Assembly (NCBI RefSeq): GCF_015694425.1
Contig: NZ_JADQDN010000001.1
Coordinates: 806,001 to 870,000 of the forward strand
Direction of reading: 5' to 3'
Length of the DNA: 64,000 nt
Source: Microvirga terrestris
GTDB taxonomy: Bacteria > Pseudomonadota > Alphaproteobacteria > Rhizobiales > Beijerinckiaceae
In this document: in pieces, positions 2,780 to 55,958 of the stretch
Layout: each line of letters opens with the position of its first letter
How positions within the stretch are numbered: the stretch's first letter is position 1
The notes under the pieces: generated by a model
Database searches by the model: none
What the model was told of the DNA's origin: nothing
The model's input: the letters and a program-made list of their open reading frames with translations, nothing else
Program-made: the position numbers and the translations under genes

Positions 2780-3259
2780 TTACGCCCTGACCACCATCAT
2801 GCCCGTGAGCAGGTCGCGGATGAAGCGCCGGTCGTCGCGGACGAAGCCGACGAACACGTCGCAGGCCCAGAGCAGGAAGGTTGAGATCGCCACGTAGAAG
2901 AACAGCGCGTGCACGGCGGCCGACAGCGGGGACGGGCCCCGGCCGGTGCGCGGGTCGATCACGCGCAGGCCCATGTAGCGCATGCCCACCGTCGCCTGGG
3001 CGGCACCGCCGATGGTCACCGCGTTGTAGACGATGAAGATCAGCGCCGTGAGCGGCAGTGCGAAGAACAGCCCCCAGCCGAGGCCGAGCGTGATGATGCC
3101 GAGGAAGAAAATGCCGATGGAGATCAGCACGACCCAGAGGGCGATCACGACGAGGTCGATCAAATAGGCCCAGAAGCGTCGGCTGATGACGCCCTCCGTC
3201 ACCCGGTCGACCTCGTAGGACGGGTAGTTCAGGGTCGGCGGGTAGGGGCGGTTGACCAT
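2780..3259 (-). CDS. RDD family membrane protein
   Basis: A 159-residue RDD-domain protein. After a short soluble N-terminus (YPPTLNYPSYEVDRV) the segment SRRFWAYLIDLVVIALWVVLI gives the family's Arg-Asp arrangement in and before the first span; further spans lie near residues 60-85 and 112-135. The AQATVGMRYMGLRVID segment after the second span is the typical RDD loop. The family's function is poorly defined; some members transport ions or compatible solutes. I chose the ATG at 3259, not the longer open frame upstream, because the upstream part overlaps the threonine dehydratase gene and reads as non-protein-like sequence. The 10-nt gap to that gene suggests co-transcription. Confidence 0.82.
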   Translation of the reverse strand: MVNRPYPPTLNYPSYEVDRVTEGVISRRFWAYLIDLVVIALWVVLISIGIFFLGIITLGLGWGLFFALPLTALIFIVYNAVTIGGAAQATVGMRYMGLRVIDPRTGRGPSPLSAAVHALFFYVAISTFLLWACDVFVGFVRDDRRFIRDLLTGMMVVRA

Positions 3260-46008: not shown

Positions 46009-47337
46009 ATGCGTTTGAGCCGCTACTTTCTCCCCATTCTCCGCGAGACGCCCAAAGAAGCGGAGATCGTCTCCCACCGCCTGATGCTGCGCGCGGGCAT
46101 GATCCGCCAGGAATCGGCAGGCATCTACGCTTGGCTGCCCCTGGGGCTAAGGGTGCTGAACAAAGTGAACGCCATCGTCCGAGAGGAGCAGAACCGCTCC
46201 GGCGCCGTCGAGCTTCTTATGCCGACGATTCAGTCGGCGGATCTGTGGCGCGAGTCGGGCCGCTATGACGCCTATGGCAAGGAGATGCTGCGCATCCAGG
46301 ACCGGCACGAGCGCGAGATGCTGTTCGGCCCCACCAATGAGGAGATGGTCACGGAGATCTTCAGGGGCTATGTGCGTTCCTACAAAGACCTGCCCCTGAA
46401 TCTTTATCACATCCAGTGGAAGTTCCGCGACGAGGTGCGTCCGCGCTTCGGCGTCATGCGCTCGCGCGAGTTCCTGATGAAGGACGCCTATTCCTTCGAT
46501 CTGGACCAGGCTGGGGCCGTCCATTCCTACAACAAGATGTTCGTGGCGTACCTGCGCACCTTCGCCCGGATGGGCCTAAAGGCCATTCCTATGCGGGCGG
46601 ACACGGGACCCATCGGCGGAAACTTAAGCCACGAGTTCATCATCTTGGCCTCGACGGGTGAGAGCGAGGTGTTCTGCCACGCCGATTACCTGAACTTCGA
46701 CATCCCGGCGGTGGATACCAATTTCGATGATATCCCCGGCCTGCAGAGCACCGTCGACAAGTGGACGTCGCTCTATGCCGCCACCTCCGAGATGCATGAT
46801 GCCGCCGCCTTCGATGCCGTTCCGGACGAGAAGAAGATGTCCGCGCGCGGTATCGAGGTCGGTCATATCTTCTATTTCGGCACCAAGTATTCCGAGCCCA
46901 TGGGCGCGCGAGTCATGGGGCCGGACGGGCAAGAGCGGGACGTCCATATGGGCTCCTACGGCATTGGCCCCAGCCGCCTGATCGCCGCCATCATTGAGGC
47001 GAGCCACGACGAGAACGGAATCATCTGGCCTGAGGCCGTGGCGCCCTTCGATGTGGCGATCCTCAACCTTAAGGCAGGCGACGCCGGTACGGACGCTGCC
47101 TGCGAGCGGCTCTATCGCGAGCTCTCCGCCGCTGGACGCGACGTGCTCTACGATGATCGCGACGAGCGCCCCGGTGGAAAGTTCGCCACCGCCGACCTCA
47201 TCGGCGTGCCGTGGCAGGTGGTGATCGGACCGAAGGGGCTTGCGGAAGGCAAGGTGGAGTTGAAGCGCCGTGCCACCGGCGAGCGCGAGACACTGTCCCT
47301 CGAGGATGTGTCCGCCCGCCTGAGCGGCCATCAATAA
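46009..47337 (+). CDS. proS: Prolyl-tRNA synthetase (short form without editing insertion)
   Basis: Charges tRNA-Pro. The 442-residue class II synthetase has motif 1 around [23 protein letters not shown], motif 2 around [14 protein letters not shown] and [29 protein letters not shown], and motif 3 [11 protein letters not shown], followed by the anticodon-binding domain ([30 protein letters not shown]). E. coli ProRS has about 570 residues because of an inserted editing domain; that insert is missing here, as usual for alphaproteobacteria. The ATG at 46009 precedes the conserved RLSRYFLP. Confidence 0.97.
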
Positions 47338-47342
47338 TCTCC

Positions 47343-48632
47343 ATGGCCAAGGCACCGGAAACCAAAACGGCACCTACAGGGACTAAGCCCTTCTCTCTGT
47401 TCGAGTGGATGCTGGCCGGGCGCTACCTGCGCACGCGGCGGCGGGAAGGCTTCGTTTCGGTCATCGCCGGTTTCTCGTTCCTTGGGATCATGCTCGGCGT
47501 TGCCACTCTGATCGTGGTGCTCTCGGTCATGAACGGCTTTCGCAAGGAGCTGCTCGACAAGATCGTCGGCATCAACGGCCATATCTTCGTGGCGCCTATA
47601 GAAAGCCCTCTGACCGACTACCCGGAGGTGGCCGCGCGCATCGCCGCCGTGCCAGGTGTTAGGCGCGCCATTCCGCTGGTGGAGGGGCAGGCCTTCGGCT
47701 CCTCGCAATACAACGGCAGCGGTGTTCTTGTGCGCGGCATTCGCCCCGAGGATCTGCAGAAGATCGAGCACATCTCCGGCAATATCCGTCAGGGCACGCT
47801 CGATGATTTCGATGAAGGCGAGGGGGTGGCGATCGGCCGGCGTCTCGCCGATGCCCTCTCGCTTCAGGCCGGCGATACCTTCACGCTGATTACCCCGCGC
47901 GGGGCCTCCACGCCCTTCGGCACGGCGCCGCGGGTGAAGGGCTATCCGGTGAAGGCGATCTTCGAGATCGGCATGTCGGAGTTCGACTCCACCTTCGTGT
48001 TCATGCCGCTGACGGAGGCGCAGAATTATTTCAACCGCCAGGGCGACGTGCAACTGATCGAGGTCTATCTCGACAATGCAGATCGGGTGGACGAGGCCCG
48101 GGTGGCCATCGACGAGGCGGCAGGACGTCCGATCCTGATGACCGACTGGCGCCAGCGCAACCGCACCTTCTTCGGCGCCCTCGAGGTCGAGCGCAACGTG
48201 ATGTTCCTCATCCTCACGCTGATCGTGCTGGTGGCGGCGCTCAATATCATCTCGGGCCTCATCATGCTCGTGAAGGACAAGTCGGAGGATATCGCGATTC
48301 TGCGGACCATGGGGGCGACACGTGGCGCCATCATGCGCGTGTTCCTGATCACCGGAGCCTCCATCGGCATTGTGGGAACAATCGCAGGCTTCGGCCTCGG
48401 TCTCCTGCTCGCGCTCAATGTCGAAACCATTCGCGATGTCATCTCGCGGCTTACGAGCACAAACCTCTTTCCGGCCGAACTCTACTTCCTGAGTCGCCTG
48501 CCGGCCGATGTGAATCCCACCGAGGTGGCGACCATCCTCGTCATGGCGATGGTGCTGTCGTTGCTCGCGACCCTCTATCCCTCTTGGCGGGCCGCGAAAC
48601 TCGATCCCGTCGAGGCGTTGCGTTACGGATAA
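47343..48632 (+). CDS. lolC: Lipoprotein-releasing ABC transporter permease (LolC/LolE family)
   Basis: Inner-membrane permease that hands outer-membrane lipoproteins to LolA. The 429-residue protein has the MacB/FtsX-like layout: first span near residues 40-65 ([29 protein letters not shown]), a large periplasmic domain to about residue 285, then three C-terminal spans. [27 protein letters not shown] is the conserved coupling region. Only one permease gene is present, followed 2 nt later by lolD, so it may act as a homodimer (LolF-like) or pair with a copy elsewhere. It lies 5 nt after proS. Confidence 0.93.
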
Positions 48633-48634
48633 AT

Positions 48635-49330
48635 ATGTCGCCAGCCCAGTCCCAGCCCGCCCTGTACCTGTCGAAAGTCGAGCGCCGCTATCCCCAGGGG
48701 GAAAGCTTCCTCGAAGTGCTGCGTGGGGCAGACCTCGCGATTTGGCCGGGCGAGATCGTGGCGCTCGTGGCGCCTTCAGGCACCGGCAAGTCGACATTGC
48801 TCCACGTGGCAGGCCTGCTCGAAAAGCCGGACAGCGGCGAGGTCTTTGTCGGGTCGAAACAGACGGCTGCAATGAACGACCAGGACCGCACCCGGGTCAG
48901 GCGTGAAGAACTCGGATTCGTCTATCAGTTTCACCATCTCCTGCCGGAGTTCTCCGCCCTGGAGAACGTGGTGATCCCGCAGCTCATCCGCGGCCTGGCG
49001 AAGCCTGAAGCACAGAATCGGGCGAAGCAGCTTCTGACCTTCCTGGGGTTGGGCAAGCGCCTCGATCACCGCCCCGGCGAGCTCTCGGGCGGCGAGCAGC
49101 AGCGTGTTGCCATTGCCCGCGCGGTTGCCAACGCGCCCCGCCTGCTGCTGGCGGATGAACCCACTGGCAACCTTGACCCGCACACGGCCGACCGAGTTTT
49201 CCAGACTCTCGTGGCCATCGTCCGCGCCTCAAAGCTCGCGGCCCTCATCGCCACCCATAACATGGATCTCGCGGCACGCATGGACCGGCGCGTGACCATC
49301 CGCGATGGGCTGATCGTTCAACTGCCCTGA
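48635..49330 (+). CDS. lolD: Lipoprotein-releasing system ATP-binding protein LolD
   Basis: ATPase of the Lol exporter. The 231 residues contain a Walker A written APSGTGKST (first glycine replaced by alanine), Q-loop [17 protein letters not shown] with the LolD-type HHLLPEF, signature [14 protein letters not shown], Walker [13 protein letters not shown] and the switch histidine in IATHNMDLA. The start lies 2 nt after the permease stop. The product partners the preceding gene, and the substrate lipoproteins would include BamE (20199). Confidence 0.95.
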
Positions 49331-49444
49331 GGTTTAAAGCTCTTATTGAAGACTTCGACTGTCGCCCTCTATGGGCCCCGGTCCGCGCGTTTTTGCGCCT
49401 TTACGCTTTGTTGACTCCGTCTCGAAGCCGAACCCTGCACAGGT

Positions 49445-49488
49445 TTTACACAGAACATCCAATGAACAAATATGAACATATTGGGAAC
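49445..49488 (+). promoter_or_regulatory. Candidate SOS promoter with two LexA-type operators
   Basis: Four GAAC half-sites are spaced to give two full alphaproteobacterial LexA boxes: GAAC-N7-GAAC at 49453-49467 and again at 49474-49488, separated by 6 nt (other strand: GTTC-N7-GTTC). A plausible promoter TTTACA (49445-49450), 17-nt spacer, AAATAT (49468-49473) would have one box in the spacer and one just after the -10, ideal for repression. The 33-codon gene starts 15 nt downstream. Confidence 0.75.
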
Positions 49489-49502
49489 ACGGAGATCAAA
49501 CC

Positions 49503-49604
49503 ATGCTTCGCTTCATCATCGAGACCACCGCCGAAATCGCTTCGCTCGCCATGTTCGGCTCGGCCGTGGCAATCTGGGCTCTGGTCCTTTCTCCCATCGC
49601 TTGA
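49503..49604 (+). CDS. 33-residue single-span membrane peptide under LexA-type control (SidA-like candidate)
   Basis: A tiny frame starting at ATG 49503 with GGAG 8 nt upstream and ending TGA at 49604. The peptide opens MLRFIIETTAEIAS, then forms one hydrophobic segment (about residues 13-31, containing AMFGSAVAIWALVL) and ends SPIA. It has no catalytic features. Two LexA-type operators lie directly upstream, so expression should rise on DNA damage. A very short, one-span, SOS-induced inner-membrane peptide is the design of Caulobacter SidA, which blocks division through FtsW/FtsN; equivalence here is an inference from architecture, not sequence similarity that I could test. It lies between lolD and dnaE. 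Confidence 0.72.
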   Translation: MLRFIIETTAEIASLAMFGSAVAIWALVLSPIA

Positions 49605-49723
49605 TACCGGGAATCCACAACAACCCACCGCGATTCACAGGAACATAGTCCTCTACATCCTGGGTTAGGATTTCTGAGGAAAGAATCGTGTCACTATGCG
49701 TGTCATTGAGTGAGTAGAGTTTC

Positions 49724-52700
49724 ATGGCGCGCATTCTTCACGACATCGGCTTCGTTCATCTTCACGTGCATTCCTCGTATTCGTTGCTCGAGGGTGCCCT
49801 GAAGATCGCGCAACTGACGAAACTCGCCGCCGCCGACAAGCAGCCGGCGCTGGCGCTCACCGACACCAACAATCTCTTCGGCGGTCTCGAATTTTCCGAG
49901 AAAATGGCGGGTTCCGGCATCCAGCCCATCGCCGGCGTCCAGCTCTCGGTCTGCTTCGAGGAGGCGGACCCAGTGGCCCGCGTGGTGCCAAAACCCGCCA
50001 ACATCGTGCTGCTCGCGCAGAACGAAGAAGGCTATCGCAACCTCATGCGCCTTGTGAGCCACGCCTATTTCGGCGTGCCGCTGGGCGAAAACCCGCGCGT
50101 TGCCGCTCCCGTCCTGTCCACCCATAGTCAGGGGATCATCGCGCTTACAGGCGGCTTTACGGGGCCGCTCGACAGCGCCTTGCGCAATGGTGGGCGTCAG
50201 GATTTGGCCCAGACTCGCCTCGATATCCTGAAGGAAGCCTTCGGCCATCAGCTCTATATCGAGATCCAGCGCCACGGGCTGGAGGACGAGCGCCTGATCG
50301 AGGGCGAGTTGCTGACGCTCGCCGACCGCAACGGCCTGCCGATCGTTGCCGCCAACGAACCCTTCTTCTCGTCAGTGAAAGACTACGAAGCGCACGATGC
50401 GCTGCTCGCCATTGCGGAAGGACAGATCGTCTCAAACCCGGATCGCCGCCGCCTCTCGCCGGAGCACCATTTCAAGACGCGCCAGCAGATGGTGGAGCTG
50501 TTTGCGGATCTGCCGGATGCTCTGCAGGCGAGCGTCGAGATCGCCATGCGATGCGCGACGCGCGTGAAGACCCGCAAGCCAATCCTGCCGAGTTTCGGCA
50601 CCGGCCCCGACGCAGCCACTCTCGACGAAGGCGAGGAGCTTCAGCGTCAGGCGGAAGAAGGCCTTGCCAAGCGTCTTGCCGCCCATGGCCCGGCGCCGGG
50701 GCTGACGGAGCAGATCTATCGCGACCGCCTGGCCTTCGAGGTTGGCATCATCCGCAGGATGCAGTTCCCGGGTTACTTTCTCATCGTGGCGGACTTCATC
50801 AAATGGGCGAAGGACCATGATATTCCGGTCGGTCCGGGCCGTGGTTCCGGCGCGGGCTCGCTCGTGGCCTATGCGCTCACCATCACCGATCTCGATCCCT
50901 TGCGTTTCAGTTTGCTCTTCGAGCGCTTCCTGAATCCGGAGCGCGTGTCGATGCCCGACTTCGACATCGACTTCTGCGTCGATGGCCGCGAGCGCGTGAT
51001 CCAATACGTGCAGCAGCGCTACGGCGAAGAGCAGGTCGCCCAGATCATCACCTTCGGTACGCTGCTTGCCCGCGGCGTGCTGCGCGACGTTGGCCGCGTT
51101 CTGGAAATGCCCTACGGCCAGGTGGATAAACTCACCAAGCTCGTGCCGCAGAACCCAGCCAATCCGGTGACGCTCGCACAGGCAATCGAAGGCGAGCCGA
51201 AGCTGCAGACGGCGATCGACGAAGAGCCTGTGGTCAAGCGCATGCTCGACATCGCGCAGAAGCTCGAGGGCCTGCACCGGCATGCCTCGACGCACGCGGC
51301 TGGCGTGGTGATCGGCGATCGTCCGTTGCAGGAACTGGTGCCGCTCTACCGAGACCCGAAGACCGGCATGCGGGTGACCCAGTTCAACATGAAATGGGTC
51401 GAGCAGGCCGGCCTCGTGAAGTTCGACTTCCTCGGCCTCAAGACGCTCACTGTTCTGCGCACAGCCGTTGACCTCATCCGGCGCAAGGGGATCGAGATCG
51501 ACCTCTCGGCACTGCCTCTCGATGACCGCAAGACCTACGAGATGCTCCAGCGCGGCGAGACGGTCGGCGTGTTCCAGGTTGAATCGGCGGGCATGCGCAA
51601 GGCCCTTGTCGAAATGGAGACCGACCGCTTCGAGGACATCATCGCTCTCGTGGCGCTCTATCGTCCGGGTCCGATGGCGAATATCCCGGTCTACTGCGCC
51701 CGCAAGCTCGGCAAGGACGAACGCAACAAGAAGGACTGGTACCCGCACGACAAGCTCGAGCCGATCCTGCGTGAGACCTTCGGCATCATCGTCTACCAGG
51801 AGCAGGTGATGGAGGTGGCCAAGGTCCTCTCCGGATACTCGCTCGGCGACGCGGACCTTCTGCGCCGCGCCATGGGTAAGAAGATCAAGGCCGAGATGGA
51901 TGCGCAGCGCGAGCGTTTCGTCTCCGGTGCGAAGGAGGGCGGCCTCGACAAGGCGAAGGCCAACGAGATCTTCGACCTGCTCGCGAAATTCGCCGATTAC
52001 GGCTTCAACAAGAGCCACGCGGCGGCCTACGCGCTCGTCGCGTTCCAGACCGCCTATCTGAAGGCCAATCACCCGGTCGAGTTCCTGGCCGCGTCCATGA
52101 CGCTCGATCTCGACAACACCGACAAGCTGTCGGAATTCCGCCGCGAGACACAGCGCCTCGGCTTCAAGGTCATCCCGCCGTCCATCAACCGGTCGGGCGT
52201 GGTGTTCGATGTGCAGTATGACGATGAAGGCCAGGGACAGATTCTCTATGCATTGGCTGCCGTCAAAGGTGTGGGCCGGCAGGCCATCGAGAGCGTGATC
52301 GAGGCCCGTGGAGACAAGCCCTTCAAGGATCTCGCCGACTTTGCCCGGCGCATCAATCCGCGCATGATCAACAAGCGCACCCTGGAAAACCTGATCGCTG
52401 CCGGCGCCATGGACGAGCTGGAGCCGGACCGGGCGAAGGCCTGTGCCTCCGTGGAATCCATGATGAGTCTGGCCCAGCAATCCCACGAAGCAGCCAATGG
52501 CGGCATGGCCGATATGTTTGGGGGCGTCGCTTCGGCGGATGTTCAGCTGCGGATCGGATCTTACGACCCCTGGCCGGCGGCCGAGAGGCTCCAGCGGGAG
52601 TTTGATGCAGTCGGCTTCTTCCTCTCGGGGCATCCGCTCGACGAGTACGGCGACCTCCTCAAGAAGCTCCGGGTTCAGACTTGGTCTGAGTTCTGCCGTT

Positions 52701-53197
52701 CCGTGAAGGCAGGCAATTCTGTCGGGCGGGTGGCCGCGACCGTGCTCGATCGCCAGGAGCGGCGCACCAAGACCGGCAATAAGATGGGCATTCTCATGCT
52801 CTCCGATCAGACCGGGCAGTATGAAGCCATAATCTTCTCTGAGGGCCTCATGCGCTTTCGTGATGTGCTTGAGCCGGGCGCCGCCGTCGTCCTCATGCTG
52901 CAGGCGGGACTCGAGGGCGAGGAGGTGAGGGCGCGAATCGGCATTGCTGAGCCTCTCGAAGAAGCTCTCGCCAAGCACCAGAAGGGTATGCGGATCTTCC
53001 TCCGGGATGAACGTCCGATCTCCAGCGTCTGTGAACGGCTGAAGACCCGGGGCGAAGGGGAGGTGTCCTTGGTTCTGATTCTCGACGACGGGGATCGGGA
53101 GGTTGAGGTCAAGCTTCCCGGTAAATACATGGCCTCGCCTCAGATTGCCGGTGCCCTCCGGGCCGTGCCTGGAGTGGTAGACGTTCATATGAATTGA
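49724..53197 (+). CDS. dnaE: DNA polymerase III alpha subunit
   Basis: Replicative polymerase. The 1157-residue protein has the N-terminal PHP domain (GFVHLHVHSSYSLLEGAL), the polymerase core with the catalytic acidic motif PDFDIDF (Asp412, Asp414) preceded by GPGRGSGAGSLVAYAL, the fingers (HAAGVVIGD, VYQEQVMEVAKVLSGYSLGDADLLRRAMGKK), a helix-hairpin-helix region near residue 845 and the OB domain (VGRVAATVLDRQERRTKTGNKMGILML). Length and motifs fit the main DnaE1 and not the shorter SOS-linked DnaE2/ImuC. The 119-nt gap after the small LexA-box gene leaves open whether part of its transcription comes from that SOS promoter. Confidence 0.96.
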   Translation: MARILHDIGFVHLHVHSSYSLLEGALKIAQLTKLAAADKQPALALTDTNNLFGGLEFSEKMAGSGIQPIAGVQLSVCFEEADPVARVVPKPANIVLLAQNEEGYRNLMRLVSHAYFGVPLGENPRVAAPVLSTHSQGIIALTGGFTGPLDSALRNGGRQDLAQTRLDILKEAFGHQLYIEIQRHGLEDERLIEGELLTLADRNGLPIVAANEPFFSSVKDYEAHDALLAIAEGQIVSNPDRRRLSPEHHFKTRQQMVELFADLPDALQASVEIAMRCATRVKTRKPILPSFGTGPDAATLDEGEELQRQAEEGLAKRLAAHGPAPGLTEQIYRDRLAFEVGIIRRMQFPGYFLIVADFIKWAKDHDIPVGPGRGSGAGSLVAYALTITDLDPLRFSLLFERFLNPERVSMPDFDIDFCVDGRERVIQYVQQRYGEEQVAQIITFGTLLARGVLRDVGRVLEMPYGQVDKLTKLVPQNPANPVTLAQAIEGEPKLQTAIDEEPVVKRMLDIAQKLEGLHRHASTHAAGVVIGDRPLQELVPLYRDPKTGMRVTQFNMKWVEQAGLVKFDFLGLKTLTVLRTAVDLIRRKGIEIDLSALPLDDRKTYEMLQRGETVGVFQVESAGMRKALVEMETDRFEDIIALVALYRPGPMANIPVYCARKLGKDERNKKDWYPHDKLEPILRETFGIIVYQEQVMEVAKVLSGYSLGDADLLRRAMGKKIKAEMDAQRERFVSGAKEGGLDKAKANEIFDLLAKFADYGFNKSHAAAYALVAFQTAYLKANHPVEFLAASMTLDLDNTDKLSEFRRETQRLGFKVIPPSINRSGVVFDVQYDDEGQGQILYALAAVKGVGRQAIESVIEARGDKPFKDLADFARRINPRMINKRTLENLIAAGAMDELEPDRAKACASVESMMSLAQQSHEAANGGMADMFGGVASADVQLRIGSYDPWPAAERLQREFDAVGFFLSGHPLDEYGDLLKKLRVQTWSEFCRSVKAGNSVGRVAATVLDRQERRTKTGNKMGILMLSDQTGQYEAIIFSEGLMRFRDVLEPGAAVVLMLQAGLEGEEVRARIGIAEPLEEALAKHQKGMRIFLRDERPISSVCERLKTRGEGEVSLVLILDDGDREVEVKLPGKYMASPQIAGALRAVPGVVDVHMN

Positions 53198-53261
53198 GGC
53201 AGTGCAGCACTTCTCCCTCGCAGAGAGAGGGTCCGGCCGAGCCAATGTTCCCATTTTGTTC

Positions 53262-53290
53262 TTGACTTTGGTCCTAAGCTGGGCTATATC
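53262..53290 (+). promoter_or_regulatory. Strong sigma-70-like promoter upstream of a structured region
   Basis: TTGACT, 17-nt spacer, TATATC. It starts 64 nt after the dnaE stop; a CCCTC / GAGGG hairpin just before it may end dnaE transcription. Predicted transcription start is near 53297. Confidence 0.65.
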
Positions 53291-53296
53291 ATTGGG

Positions 53297-53545
53297 TAGA
53301 CCTGCTTCTCTGAGGGGCGCGCTCGCGAGGCGTCGCAGTGTGGGAGCAGGCACGGTCTCGTGCAGAGGTTTCGCAAACCCCTGTGACGGGAGGCCCAGGC
53401 TGTGGGCCGGTGGTCGGAATCGGTTCAAGGCCCCCGTCGAGCAGACGGGCCACGCCTTGAGCGGTCACCGGGCTGGTCCCGCCTGTCCGCCTAAAGAAGC
53501 CGTGCGCGAAGAGGCACTCCGGCTCTTCCTTCTCACCACCCATCA
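53297..53545 (+). ncRNA. Candidate structured non-coding RNA between dnaE and rpsB
   Basis: From the predicted start onwards the sequence folds into consecutive strong hairpins: CTGCTTCT (53302-53309) with GGGAGCAG (G-U pairs allowed) enclosing a CGCG/CGCG helix; GCACG-GTCT-CGTGC; GGTTT-CGC-AAACC; GGCCCA-GGCTG-TGGGCC; a nested TCAAGGC / GCCTTGA around CCCGTC-GAGCA-GACGGG; and GAAGAG / CTCTTC near 53509-53527 followed by CCTTCTC. No tmRNA tag, RNase P or SRP motifs were found. It could be an independent sRNA or a long rpsB leader; a second promoter (53764) favours the former. The 3' end is a guess. Confidence 0.5.
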
Positions 53546-53763
53546 TCGAGCCGAGCTGCCAGTCGCGCCACCCTCGATCACCGCACAGGCTCGCAGCTCA
53601 CGCTGCGGGCCCCAAGGTGCTGGCTCAATCAGCGTCATCCCGGACGAAGGGCAGGGCAGCGTATATTCCTGTGCCATGGGCCTCAGGCCTGCCCGAGATC
53701 TGTCCTGCGATGAAGGGGTCTAAGGCGGGATGGCGCCATGCTCCGGCAGGAGAACGTCCTGCT
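53546..53763. other. Non-coding stretch between the structured region and the rpsB promoter
   Basis: No convincing gene. It includes a CGTCATCCCGGACGAAGGG segment that faintly recalls the ends of the palindromic repeats at 2671 and 10329 but lacks matching inverted arms; it may be a decayed repeat. Confidence 0.4.
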
Positions 53764-53792
53764 TGCGTTTCGAGCCGTTTACCCCTATATGC
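53764..53792 (+). promoter_or_regulatory. Candidate promoter of rpsB-tsf
   Basis: TTGCGT, 17-nt spacer, TATATG, leaving a leader of roughly 100 nt before the rpsB start. Confidence 0.55.
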
Positions 53793-53897
53793 GCCCGCAT
53801 CCCACACGCGGAATCCCCTCATGAGTCCATGAGGAACCCCCGGTGGCCGGAAGGGTCCGGTCCACTGTTCCGCGGAGGCTTAACCGGAGAATAGACT

Positions 53898-54923
53898 ATG
53901 GCGCTTCCTGATTTCTCGATGCGCAGCCTGCTTGAGGCTGGCGCGCACTTTGGACACCAGTCCCACCGTTGGAACCCGAAGATGGGTCAGTTCATCTTCG
54001 GTACCCGCAACAACATCCACATCATCGACCTTGCCCAGACGGTTCCGATGCTGCACCGCGCCCTCCAGGCCGTCAGCGACACGGTGGCTAAGGGCGGGCG
54101 TGTGCTCTTCGTCGGTACGAAGCGTCAGGCTTCCGATGCAGTCGCCGATGCGGCCAAGCGTTCGGCCCAGTACTACGTGAACTCCCGTTGGCTCGGCGGC
54201 ATGCTGACCAACTGGAAGACCATCTCCGGCTCGATCTCCCGCCTGCGCAAGGTGGACGAAATCCTTGCCGGCGGCGGCCAGGGCCTCACGAAGAAAGAGC
54301 GCCTCATGCTCGCCCGCGAGAAGGAAAAGCTCGAGCGCGCTCTTGGCGGCATCAAGGACATGGGCGGCACGCCCGACCTGATCTTCGTCATCGACACCAA
54401 CAAGGAGCAGCTGGCGATCCAGGAGGCCAAGCGCCTCGGCATCCCGGTGGCAGCCATCGTCGACACGAACTGCGATCCGGACGGCATCACCTTCCCGGTT
54501 CCGGCCAACGACGACGCCGGTCGTGCGATCTCGCTCTATTGCGATCTAGTTGCTCGCGCTGCCCTCGACGGCATCTCCCGCGGTGCCGGTGACATGGGCA
54601 TCGACATCGGTGCTTCCGAGAACCCGATGGCTGAAGAGCTTCCGGCCAACGACACGGTTGCTGTCCCCGCTTATGAGGGCGAGCAGTTCGAGCGTCTGGC
54701 GGCTCCCCGCGGCGCTCCGGATGATCTGACCAAGCTCAACGGTGTTGGCCCGCAGCTCGAGAAGAAGCTCAATGAAGCCGGCATCTTCCACTACTGGCAG
54801 CTCGCTGCCATGCAGCCGGCCGATTCCGCTCAGCTCGACAAGGACTTGAAGCTGAATGGCCGTCTCGAGCGCGATGGCTGGATCAACCAGGCCCGCTCGA
54901 TGATCGAAGCCGCTGCTGCGTAA
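53898..54923 (+). CDS. rpsB: 30S ribosomal protein S2 with C-terminal helix-hairpin-helix extension
   Basis: The S2 core ([93 protein letters not shown]) spans about 230 residues. An acidic linker follows, then from about residue 275 a domain with [29 protein letters not shown] and [14 protein letters not shown], a helix-hairpin-helix-like fold typical of alphaproteobacterial S2. Total 341 residues against about 240 in E. coli. GGAG precedes the ATG by 9 nt. tsf follows after 105 nt. Confidence 0.97.
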
Positions 54924-55028
54924 GCCTCACGGCGCCGCATCGTGCAGCGCCGCTTGAACGAATGATCGAGCCCGGCGTTCCACGAGCGCCGGGCTCCCTC
55001 TATGCATAAACCTTTGAAAGGAACAGCC

Positions 55029-55958
55029 ATGGCGAACATTACCGCTGCGATGGTGAAAGAGCTGCGCGAGACGACCAGCGCCGGCATGATGGACTGCAAG
55101 GCCGCCCTCGCCGAGACCAACGGTGACATGGAGGCAGCGATCGACTGGCTCCGCAAGAAGGGCCTCTCGAAGGCTGCTAAGAAGGCTGGCCGCGTGGCCG
55201 CCGAGGGCCTCGTGGCCGTCGAGTCGTCAGGCCACACCGCGACGATCCTGGAAGTGAACTCCGAGACCGACTTCGTCGCCCGCAACGACGGGTTCCAGGC
55301 TTTCGTTCGCGAAGCCGCCAAGATCGGCCTCATGGGCAACGGCACCATCGAGTCGCTTGAGGCTGCCCACTTCCCGGGTTCGCAGACCACCGTGAAGGAC
55401 CGCCTGCAGGAGCTCATCGCCACCATCGGCGAGAACATGACCCTGCGCCGCATCGCAAAGCTCGAAGTGTCGAAGGGCGTCATTGCGTCCTACGTCCACA
55501 ATGCCGTCACCGAAGGCCTCGGCAAGATCGGTGTTCTCGTAGCCCTGGAATCCGAAGGTGATGTGACCGTTCTCGGCACGCTCGGCCGCCAGATCGCCAT
55601 GCACGTGGCCGCCACCAGCCCGGTAGCTCTCGACGCCTCCGGCGTCGATCAGGCGACCATCGACCGCGAGACCGCGATCCTGCGCGACAAGAACGCCGGC
55701 AAGCCCGACAACGTCATGCAGAAGATCGTCGAGAGCGGCCTGAAGAGCTACTTCAAGGAAGTCACCCTCCTGGAGCAGCCCTTCGTGCACGACTCGTCGA
55801 AGACCGTGTCCCAGGTGCTCAAGGAAGCCGAGTCCAAGGCCGGCAAACCGGTCGCTCTGAAGGCCTTCGTCCGCTATGCCCTCGGCGAGGGCATCGAGAA
55901 GGAGGAGGCTCCGGACTTCGCGGCGGAAGTTGCCGCTCAGGCCGGTCTCAAGGCCTAA
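55029..55958 (+). CDS. tsf: Elongation factor Ts
   Basis: Nucleotide exchange factor for EF-Tu. The 309-residue protein opens [44 protein letters not shown], with the diagnostic TDFVARN in the core and [19 protein letters not shown] at the C-terminus. AAAGGAA lies 6 nt before the ATG at 55029, which was preferred to an upstream in-frame ATG. A strong terminator follows. Confidence 0.98.

Follow-up and report, generated by a model that had tools for sequence, protein, structure and literature searches.

Does the lolD-dnaE gap of the Microvirga terrestris genome encode an SOS-induced membrane peptide that holds back cell division, and is this peptide related to SidA of Caulobacter? SidA is described as a 29-amino-acid, LexA-controlled, SOS-induced inner-membrane division inhibitor acting on FtsW and FtsN (PMC4211646), and the LexA box of Caulobacter crescentus is given as GTTC-N7-GTTC (PMC9578287). 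The first-pass annotation of a 64,000-nucleotide stretch of M. terrestris DNA (hereafter, the window) pointed to a possible SidA-like, LexA-controlled peptide of 33 residues in this gap and proposed that it is the DNA damage division brake of the lineage.

The lolD-dnaE gap in the window

All features of the locus lie on the plus strand. The upstream neighbor is lolD (ABC transporter ATP-binding subunit, 48635..49330; start picked by eye within a frame listed from 48584) and the downstream neighbor is dnaE (DNA polymerase III alpha subunit, 49724..53197); both names are those of the first-pass annotation, and the lolD frame and the first 200 residues of dnaE served as queries at related loci. 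The two tandem GAAC-N7-GAAC boxes that the first-pass annotation had noticed are indeed exact, GAACATCCAATGAAC at 49453..49467 and GAACATATTGGGAAC at 49474..49488. They are followed, as it had described, by GGAG at 49491..49494, a ribosome-binding site read from the sequence and conserved in the alignment of relatives, and, 8 nt further, by a frame (49503..49604) that starts with ATG at 49503, ends with TGA at 49602-49604 and is translated as MLRFIIETTAEIASLAMFGSAVAIWALVLSPIA (33 amino acids). The single hydrophobic span of this peptide is apparent from the hydropathy profile (19-residue span), which peaks at 2.04 over residues 12-30, and AlphaFold2 predicts a single helix spanning residues 2-29 (mean pLDDT 96). 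Searches with the peptide retrieved no families from either Pfam or NCBIfam at E <= 10, a profile search against solved structures produced a single chance match (E 1.4), and a DNA search of the plasmid collection gave no match.

A possible promoter, which a consensus scan did not call, would consist of a putative -35 element, TTTACA (49445..49450), and a putative -10 element, AAATAT (49468-49473), separated by 17 nt; box 1 would then fall within the spacer, and box 2 would cover the start site. In the aligned Microvirga promoters, TTTACA, box 1, box 2 and GGAG stand out as conserved blocks, together with one further block upstream. Further downstream, just before rpsB, the window contains a match to the Rfam model RF01815 (rpsB sRNA; 53803-53901, 36.4 bits against a gathering threshold of 40, E 2.3e-4).

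The box motif by itself proves nothing because single matches are common by chance in the genome: GAAC-N7-GAAC occurs three times in the window, where 1.6 occurrences are expected and 20 of 100 shuffles contain at least three, and the genome-wide count is 75+75 compared to 62+65 for a reversed control pattern. With counts this close to those of the shuffles and the control pattern, we rejected box frequency alone as evidence, and the weight of the boxes comes, instead, from their conservation across Microvirga. Several of the A-rich boxes in the genome-wide count are accounted for by dispersed copies of a repeat some 400 bp long, located at 53244-53640 in the window and at loci L034, L040, L051 and L056 (more weakly, L049) of the same genome; this repeat, found among 30 own-genome box loci, shows 86-90% identity in four other copies, opens with GTTC-N7-GTTC directly 5' of a promoter-like TTGACA..TATATC, and has no gene recognized inside.

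Conservation and selection in Microvirga

The named collection contains 39 related loci, all from Microvirga; M. lupini Lut6 contributes two of them, L101 being its second copy. Among the whole genomes of the genus, 36 of 37, the source genome included, contain a match at E <= 1; the one without a match at this threshold is G025, an assembly of 780 contigs. The codon set was composed of 38 named loci and the window, with L101 excluded. All 39 sequences start with ATG, encode 33 residues and end with the same stop, so the conserved frame that the first-pass annotation called for is present. Such openness alone says little, given that the alternative reading frames of this region are also free of stops in 3 to 37 of the 39 sequences. 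The substitution pattern is more telling: the mean minor-allele frequency in the 39 sequences is 0.123, 0.044 and 0.299 at codon positions 1, 2 and 3, respectively, and the median dN/dS is 0.17 (362 of the 741 pairs, those with pS of 0.05-0.5), the signature of purifying selection that had been suggested as a check. At least one exact box is located 48-51 nt 5' of the ATG in all 39 Microvirga loci, and a second exact box is present in 35. Judging by the codon alignment, the 33-codon frame is a real gene under purifying selection. The second copy of M. lupini Lut6 (L061/L101), on another contig, has no box and no start codon where the alignment would place it and is apparently a decayed duplicate.

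Relatives across the order

Relatives beyond the genus were sought with the profile A1, built from 17 sequences, and with A2 and A3, built from hand-picked sets of 40 and 51 sequences, respectively; presence of the boxes was not used as a criterion in the A1 and A2 searches. The A1 search detected relatives in 68 of the 149 genomes of the window's family, from 26 of 43 genera (E <= 0.05), and the A2 search, in 70 of the 297 genomes of the order, from 25 of 118 genera (E <= 0.02); the 227 order genomes without an A2 match at E <= 0.02 count against reading the gene as a sidA ortholog. An exact box is present upstream in 49 of 65 loci (within 300 nt) and in 47 of 58 loci (within 200 nt). In both searches, most loci were drawn from ranked lists, so that close relatives are counted repeatedly. 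The relatives across the order are mostly 27-38 residues long.

Of the 121 distinct loci outside Microvirga, 95 also hold dnaE; in the other 26, the fetched piece yields no dnaE match or a contig edge lies upstream (L150, L154). The peptide is encoded upstream of dnaE and in the same direction in all 95, which bears out the expectation that conserved short frames would occupy the lolD-dnaE gap of other Rhizobiales. The median distance from dnaE to the match is 238 nt, lolD lies upstream within the fetched piece in 44 of these loci, and an exact box is found within 130 nt in 87, or in 92 with at most one mismatch allowed. Thus, judging from these sequences, the SidA-like family is order-wide, has a fixed address and is represented by no Pfam or NCBIfam model.

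Three loci of genus g108 (L224, L226 and L227) encode 27-residue relatives near lolD and dnaE with no box, even with one mismatch allowed, and count against the sidA reading; LexA control may have been lost or altered in this genus. Close relatives of the g108 peptides, 27-31 residues long, also occur at sites without dnaE (L241, L242 and L228), one of them adjoining an SSB-looking frame.

An upstream conserved element, here TTTACGCTTTGTTGACTC (49400..49417), takes the form TTAA-N7-TTGAC in 31 of the 39 Microvirga promoters, and where these show TTGAC, the window has TTTAC. At the order level, the motif TTAACC is present upstream in 32 of the 95 loci (shuffles, 2.0), these loci not being mutually independent, and GANTC is not enriched upstream (45 of 95 against 42.8 in shuffles). 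The TTAA-N7-TTGAC element and TTAACC resemble what we take to be a CtrA site or half-site; such a CtrA-like site, if true, would link the gene not only with the SOS response but also with the cell cycle.

Relationship to SidA of Caulobacter

Class-wide profile searches reached nothing convincing outside the order: A2 gave two matches there (E 0.0045 and 0.012), and A3 gave a best E of 0.012, with most matches lying inside long open frames and the four short-frame matches inspected (L258, L267, L270 and L273) lacking a box. For this reason, we turned to the neighborhood of dnaE. The Caulobacter family was located via the LpxI chain of PDB 4ggm, which, we presume, comes from C. crescentus, and dnaE was then searched in the genomes found. 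The dnaE locus was detected in 28 of 30 genomes, and in 14 of these, a frame of 29-31 residues comes after an exact box; the other 14 have no exact box, which counts against the sidA reading. A third set consisted of dnaE-upstream regions from 30 genomes of other orders of the class, from families other than f102, and its members were selected by place and box. Here, dnaE was found in 28 genomes, and in 9 of them a short hydrophobic frame comes after an exact box; for five of these nine peptides (L327, L328, L330, L333 and L335), an internal start codon was picked by eye. The 19 loci without an exact box, again, count against the sidA reading. Compared to shuffles, exact boxes are greatly in excess in the 450 nt upstream of dnaE: they occur in 14 of 28 loci of the Caulobacter family (shuffle mean, 0.23) and in 9 of 28 loci of the other orders (shuffle mean, 0.17), and none occur inside dnaE in either set. 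Outside the order, the distribution of the family across the class is patchy.

One genome, G1027, encodes an LpxI 100% identical to that of PDB 4ggm and, given this identity and the source that we assume for 4ggm, appears to be Caulobacter vibrioides. Its lolD-dnaE gap (L341) contains the box GAACATCTTGTGAAC, GGAGG and the ATG of a 29-residue frame, so that the comparison with the Caulobacter locus advised by the first-pass annotation comes out in favor of a shared arrangement. The 29 residues, the LexA-type box and the place agree with the published traits of SidA, and, on this basis, we take this frame to be sidA. Longer in-frame starts, giving 33 and 40 residues, are present too; the annotated start of sidA is reported to have been corrected once (PMC4117421). 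Among 16 g392 loci chosen from the genomes found in the LpxI search, 14 have a similar boxed frame, and two (L353 and L355) do not.

Profile comparison connects these sets. The A3 alignment (51 rows) matches the Caulobacteraceae set A4 with E 9.9e-6 over 24 columns, with an identity of 17% over these columns, a low pairwise likeness that counts against orthology with SidA. When seven Caulobacter-genus sequences are added to A4, the score is 22.1; 200 column shuffles average 8.3 and peak at 14.8, and the reversed alignment scores 8.0. The third set scores 28.0 against the order profile (null maximum, 11.2) and 24.2 against the SidA-set profile (null maximum, 16.6). With all three profile matches above their nulls, the three taxon sets are consistent with one another in location, operator and sequence.

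The Microvirga gene and sidA of C. crescentus share the lolD-dnaE gap, an upstream LexA-type box, a length of about 30 residues, one hydrophobic helix of nearly the same peak hydropathy (2.04 against 2.08 for the Caulobacter 29-mer) and profile similarity. They differ in that the Microvirga peptide has 33 residues rather than 29 and is preceded by two tandem boxes, and pairwise identity is low. The profile score above all 200 shuffles and the common neighborhood point to common descent, the predicted helix (residues 2-29 of 33) fits the expected size and topology, and two exact, conserved boxes at the putative promoter are consistent with a LexA operator. Given this agreement of place, box and the profile matches of three sets, the likeness to SidA suggested by the first-pass annotation is best explained by orthology: the Microvirga gene is most probably the ortholog of Caulobacter sidA, encoding a LexA-repressed, single-helix inner-membrane peptide that we propose to be a divisome brake.

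Copies in phages and prophages

Some paralogs away from dnaE lie in DNA that resembles a prophage, where they follow a CI-type repressor frame encoded on the same strand. The peptide lies about 0.5 kb downstream of the repressor in L069 and L071, and L072 and L176 are arranged likewise. A scan of viral contigs detected three, of 46-50 kb (L357-L359), with a peptide near position 3001, 0.6-2 kb downstream of a CI-type repressor on the same strand; L358 and L073 count as one case because they are the same DNA. Pfam searches identified an S24 repressor in L071 and both an S24 repressor and ERF in L358, and the repressors at the other phage and prophage loci were read by eye. Exact LexA-type boxes are located 135-178 nt upstream in L357, L359, L069 and L071. 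The phage peptides score 35.3 against the order profile A3 (null maximum, 14.1) and 8.3, within the null, against the SidA-set profile, so the match is limited to the Hyphomicrobiales-type A3. Viral scans with A1 and A4 returned 27 and 24 stretches, respectively, that fit the pattern, none of which was confirmed.

Alternative explanations

The features of the peptide taken one by one are not specific to SidA. E. coli TisB and DinQ are described as membrane peptides, and DinQ as SOS-regulated and single-transmembrane (PMC11575346, PMC3567139); DinQ thus shares the size class, the single hydrophobic helix and SOS control with the Microvirga peptide (PMC3567139), which, accordingly, could arrest growth through loss of membrane potential, without a divisome block. 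We consider such a role unlikely, since the place and the profile link the peptide to SidA; searches aimed at other targets brought up no relation to TisB or DinQ in sequence or position. An Rfam scan of 47000-55500 at E <= 1, which covers known RNA families and would pass over a new one, yielded only rpsB and thus no known antitoxin RNA like those that control the E. coli systems. The resemblance to SidA could also be convergent, with an independent small SOS membrane peptide having arisen at the same place, because pairwise identity is low and short hydrophobic peptides resemble one another. Yet, column shuffles that keep composition reach the observed scores in 0 of 200 and, twice, 0 of 100 cases, and place, box and peptide core are concordant in three taxon sets, which leaves very little room for convergence.

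The position upstream of and co-directional with dnaE in all 95 counted loci, along with the lack of a terminator-like site between the frame and dnaE in the window, would suit a regulator of dnaE, either a leader peptide or an upstream frame, that is induced together with dnaE in the SOS response. Against such a leader, it is the amino acid sequence that is under selection, and boxed relatives occur without dnaE within 1.5 kb (L127, L131 and L133). Furthermore, in M. solisilvae (L019, L095), the unit is inverted between lolD and dnaE (INDEPENDENCE from dnaE) and remains intact although it points away from dnaE; along with the gene, the inversion carries the two boxes, the promoter block and, further upstream, the conserved element with its TTGACTC block. 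This inverted copy weakens the leader explanation, which we regard as highly improbable.

Other known division inhibitors are more distant from the probable sidA ortholog. DidA of Caulobacter, described as a 71-amino-acid, DriD-induced, SOS-independent inhibitor acting on FtsN (PMC4211646), is likewise a small single-helix membrane peptide, but the Microvirga peptide is 33 amino acids long and has LexA-type boxes, and a divisome target is only proposed for it. SulA of Escherichia coli, an SOS division inhibitor reported to disrupt FtsZ polymerization (PMC4211646), would share with the Microvirga peptide the SOS-induced division block and would differ from it in that the latter is a membrane peptide with FtsW/FtsN, rather than FtsZ, as the proposed target.

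SOS context and implications

The genome carries lexA about 9.7 kb beyond the right end of the window, and lexA itself has a box some 60 nt upstream of its start. This motif is also found ahead of an ImuA-like frame (61.7 bits, under the model cut-off of 150) and of a Y-family polymerase. In the undamaged cell, LexA bound to the two boxes, in the promoter spacer and over the start site, would keep the peptide gene off; upon damage, RecA would trigger self-cleavage of LexA, and the peptide would be made. It would then insert in the inner membrane and keep the late divisome (FtsW/FtsI/FtsN) inactive, with septation delayed until the DNA is repaired. The sequence data support the first half of this chain, up to production of the peptide, whereas the second half, the FtsW/I/N block and the delay of division, is carried over from SidA. 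Thus we infer LexA binding, membrane insertion, target and effect of the Microvirga peptide, and its role as the division brake of this lineage, the claim of the first-pass annotation, would follow by analogy with the role published for SidA (PMC4211646).

The open-access literature yielded no description of SidA outside Caulobacter or on phages, although an earlier mention of a homolog is possible; an apparent mention of SidA in Bradyrhizobium (PMC11031950) turned out to be 'Holm-Sidak'. A broader scenario, which we find attractive but stop a little short of favoring, is that SidA is not peculiar to Caulobacter but an ancient SOS division brake of the Alphaproteobacteria that has stayed in the lolD-dnaE gap and escaped annotation because of its shortness and variability, and that temperate phages of these bacteria took it, placing it downstream of a CI-type repressor, and delay host division after induction.

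Because the order-wide family has a fixed address, a single deletion in each species would put the question to a direct test, and the diverged homologs show which residues are retained and can guide the analysis of target binding by SidA. The phage copies, if true, would represent phages borrowing a host checkpoint.
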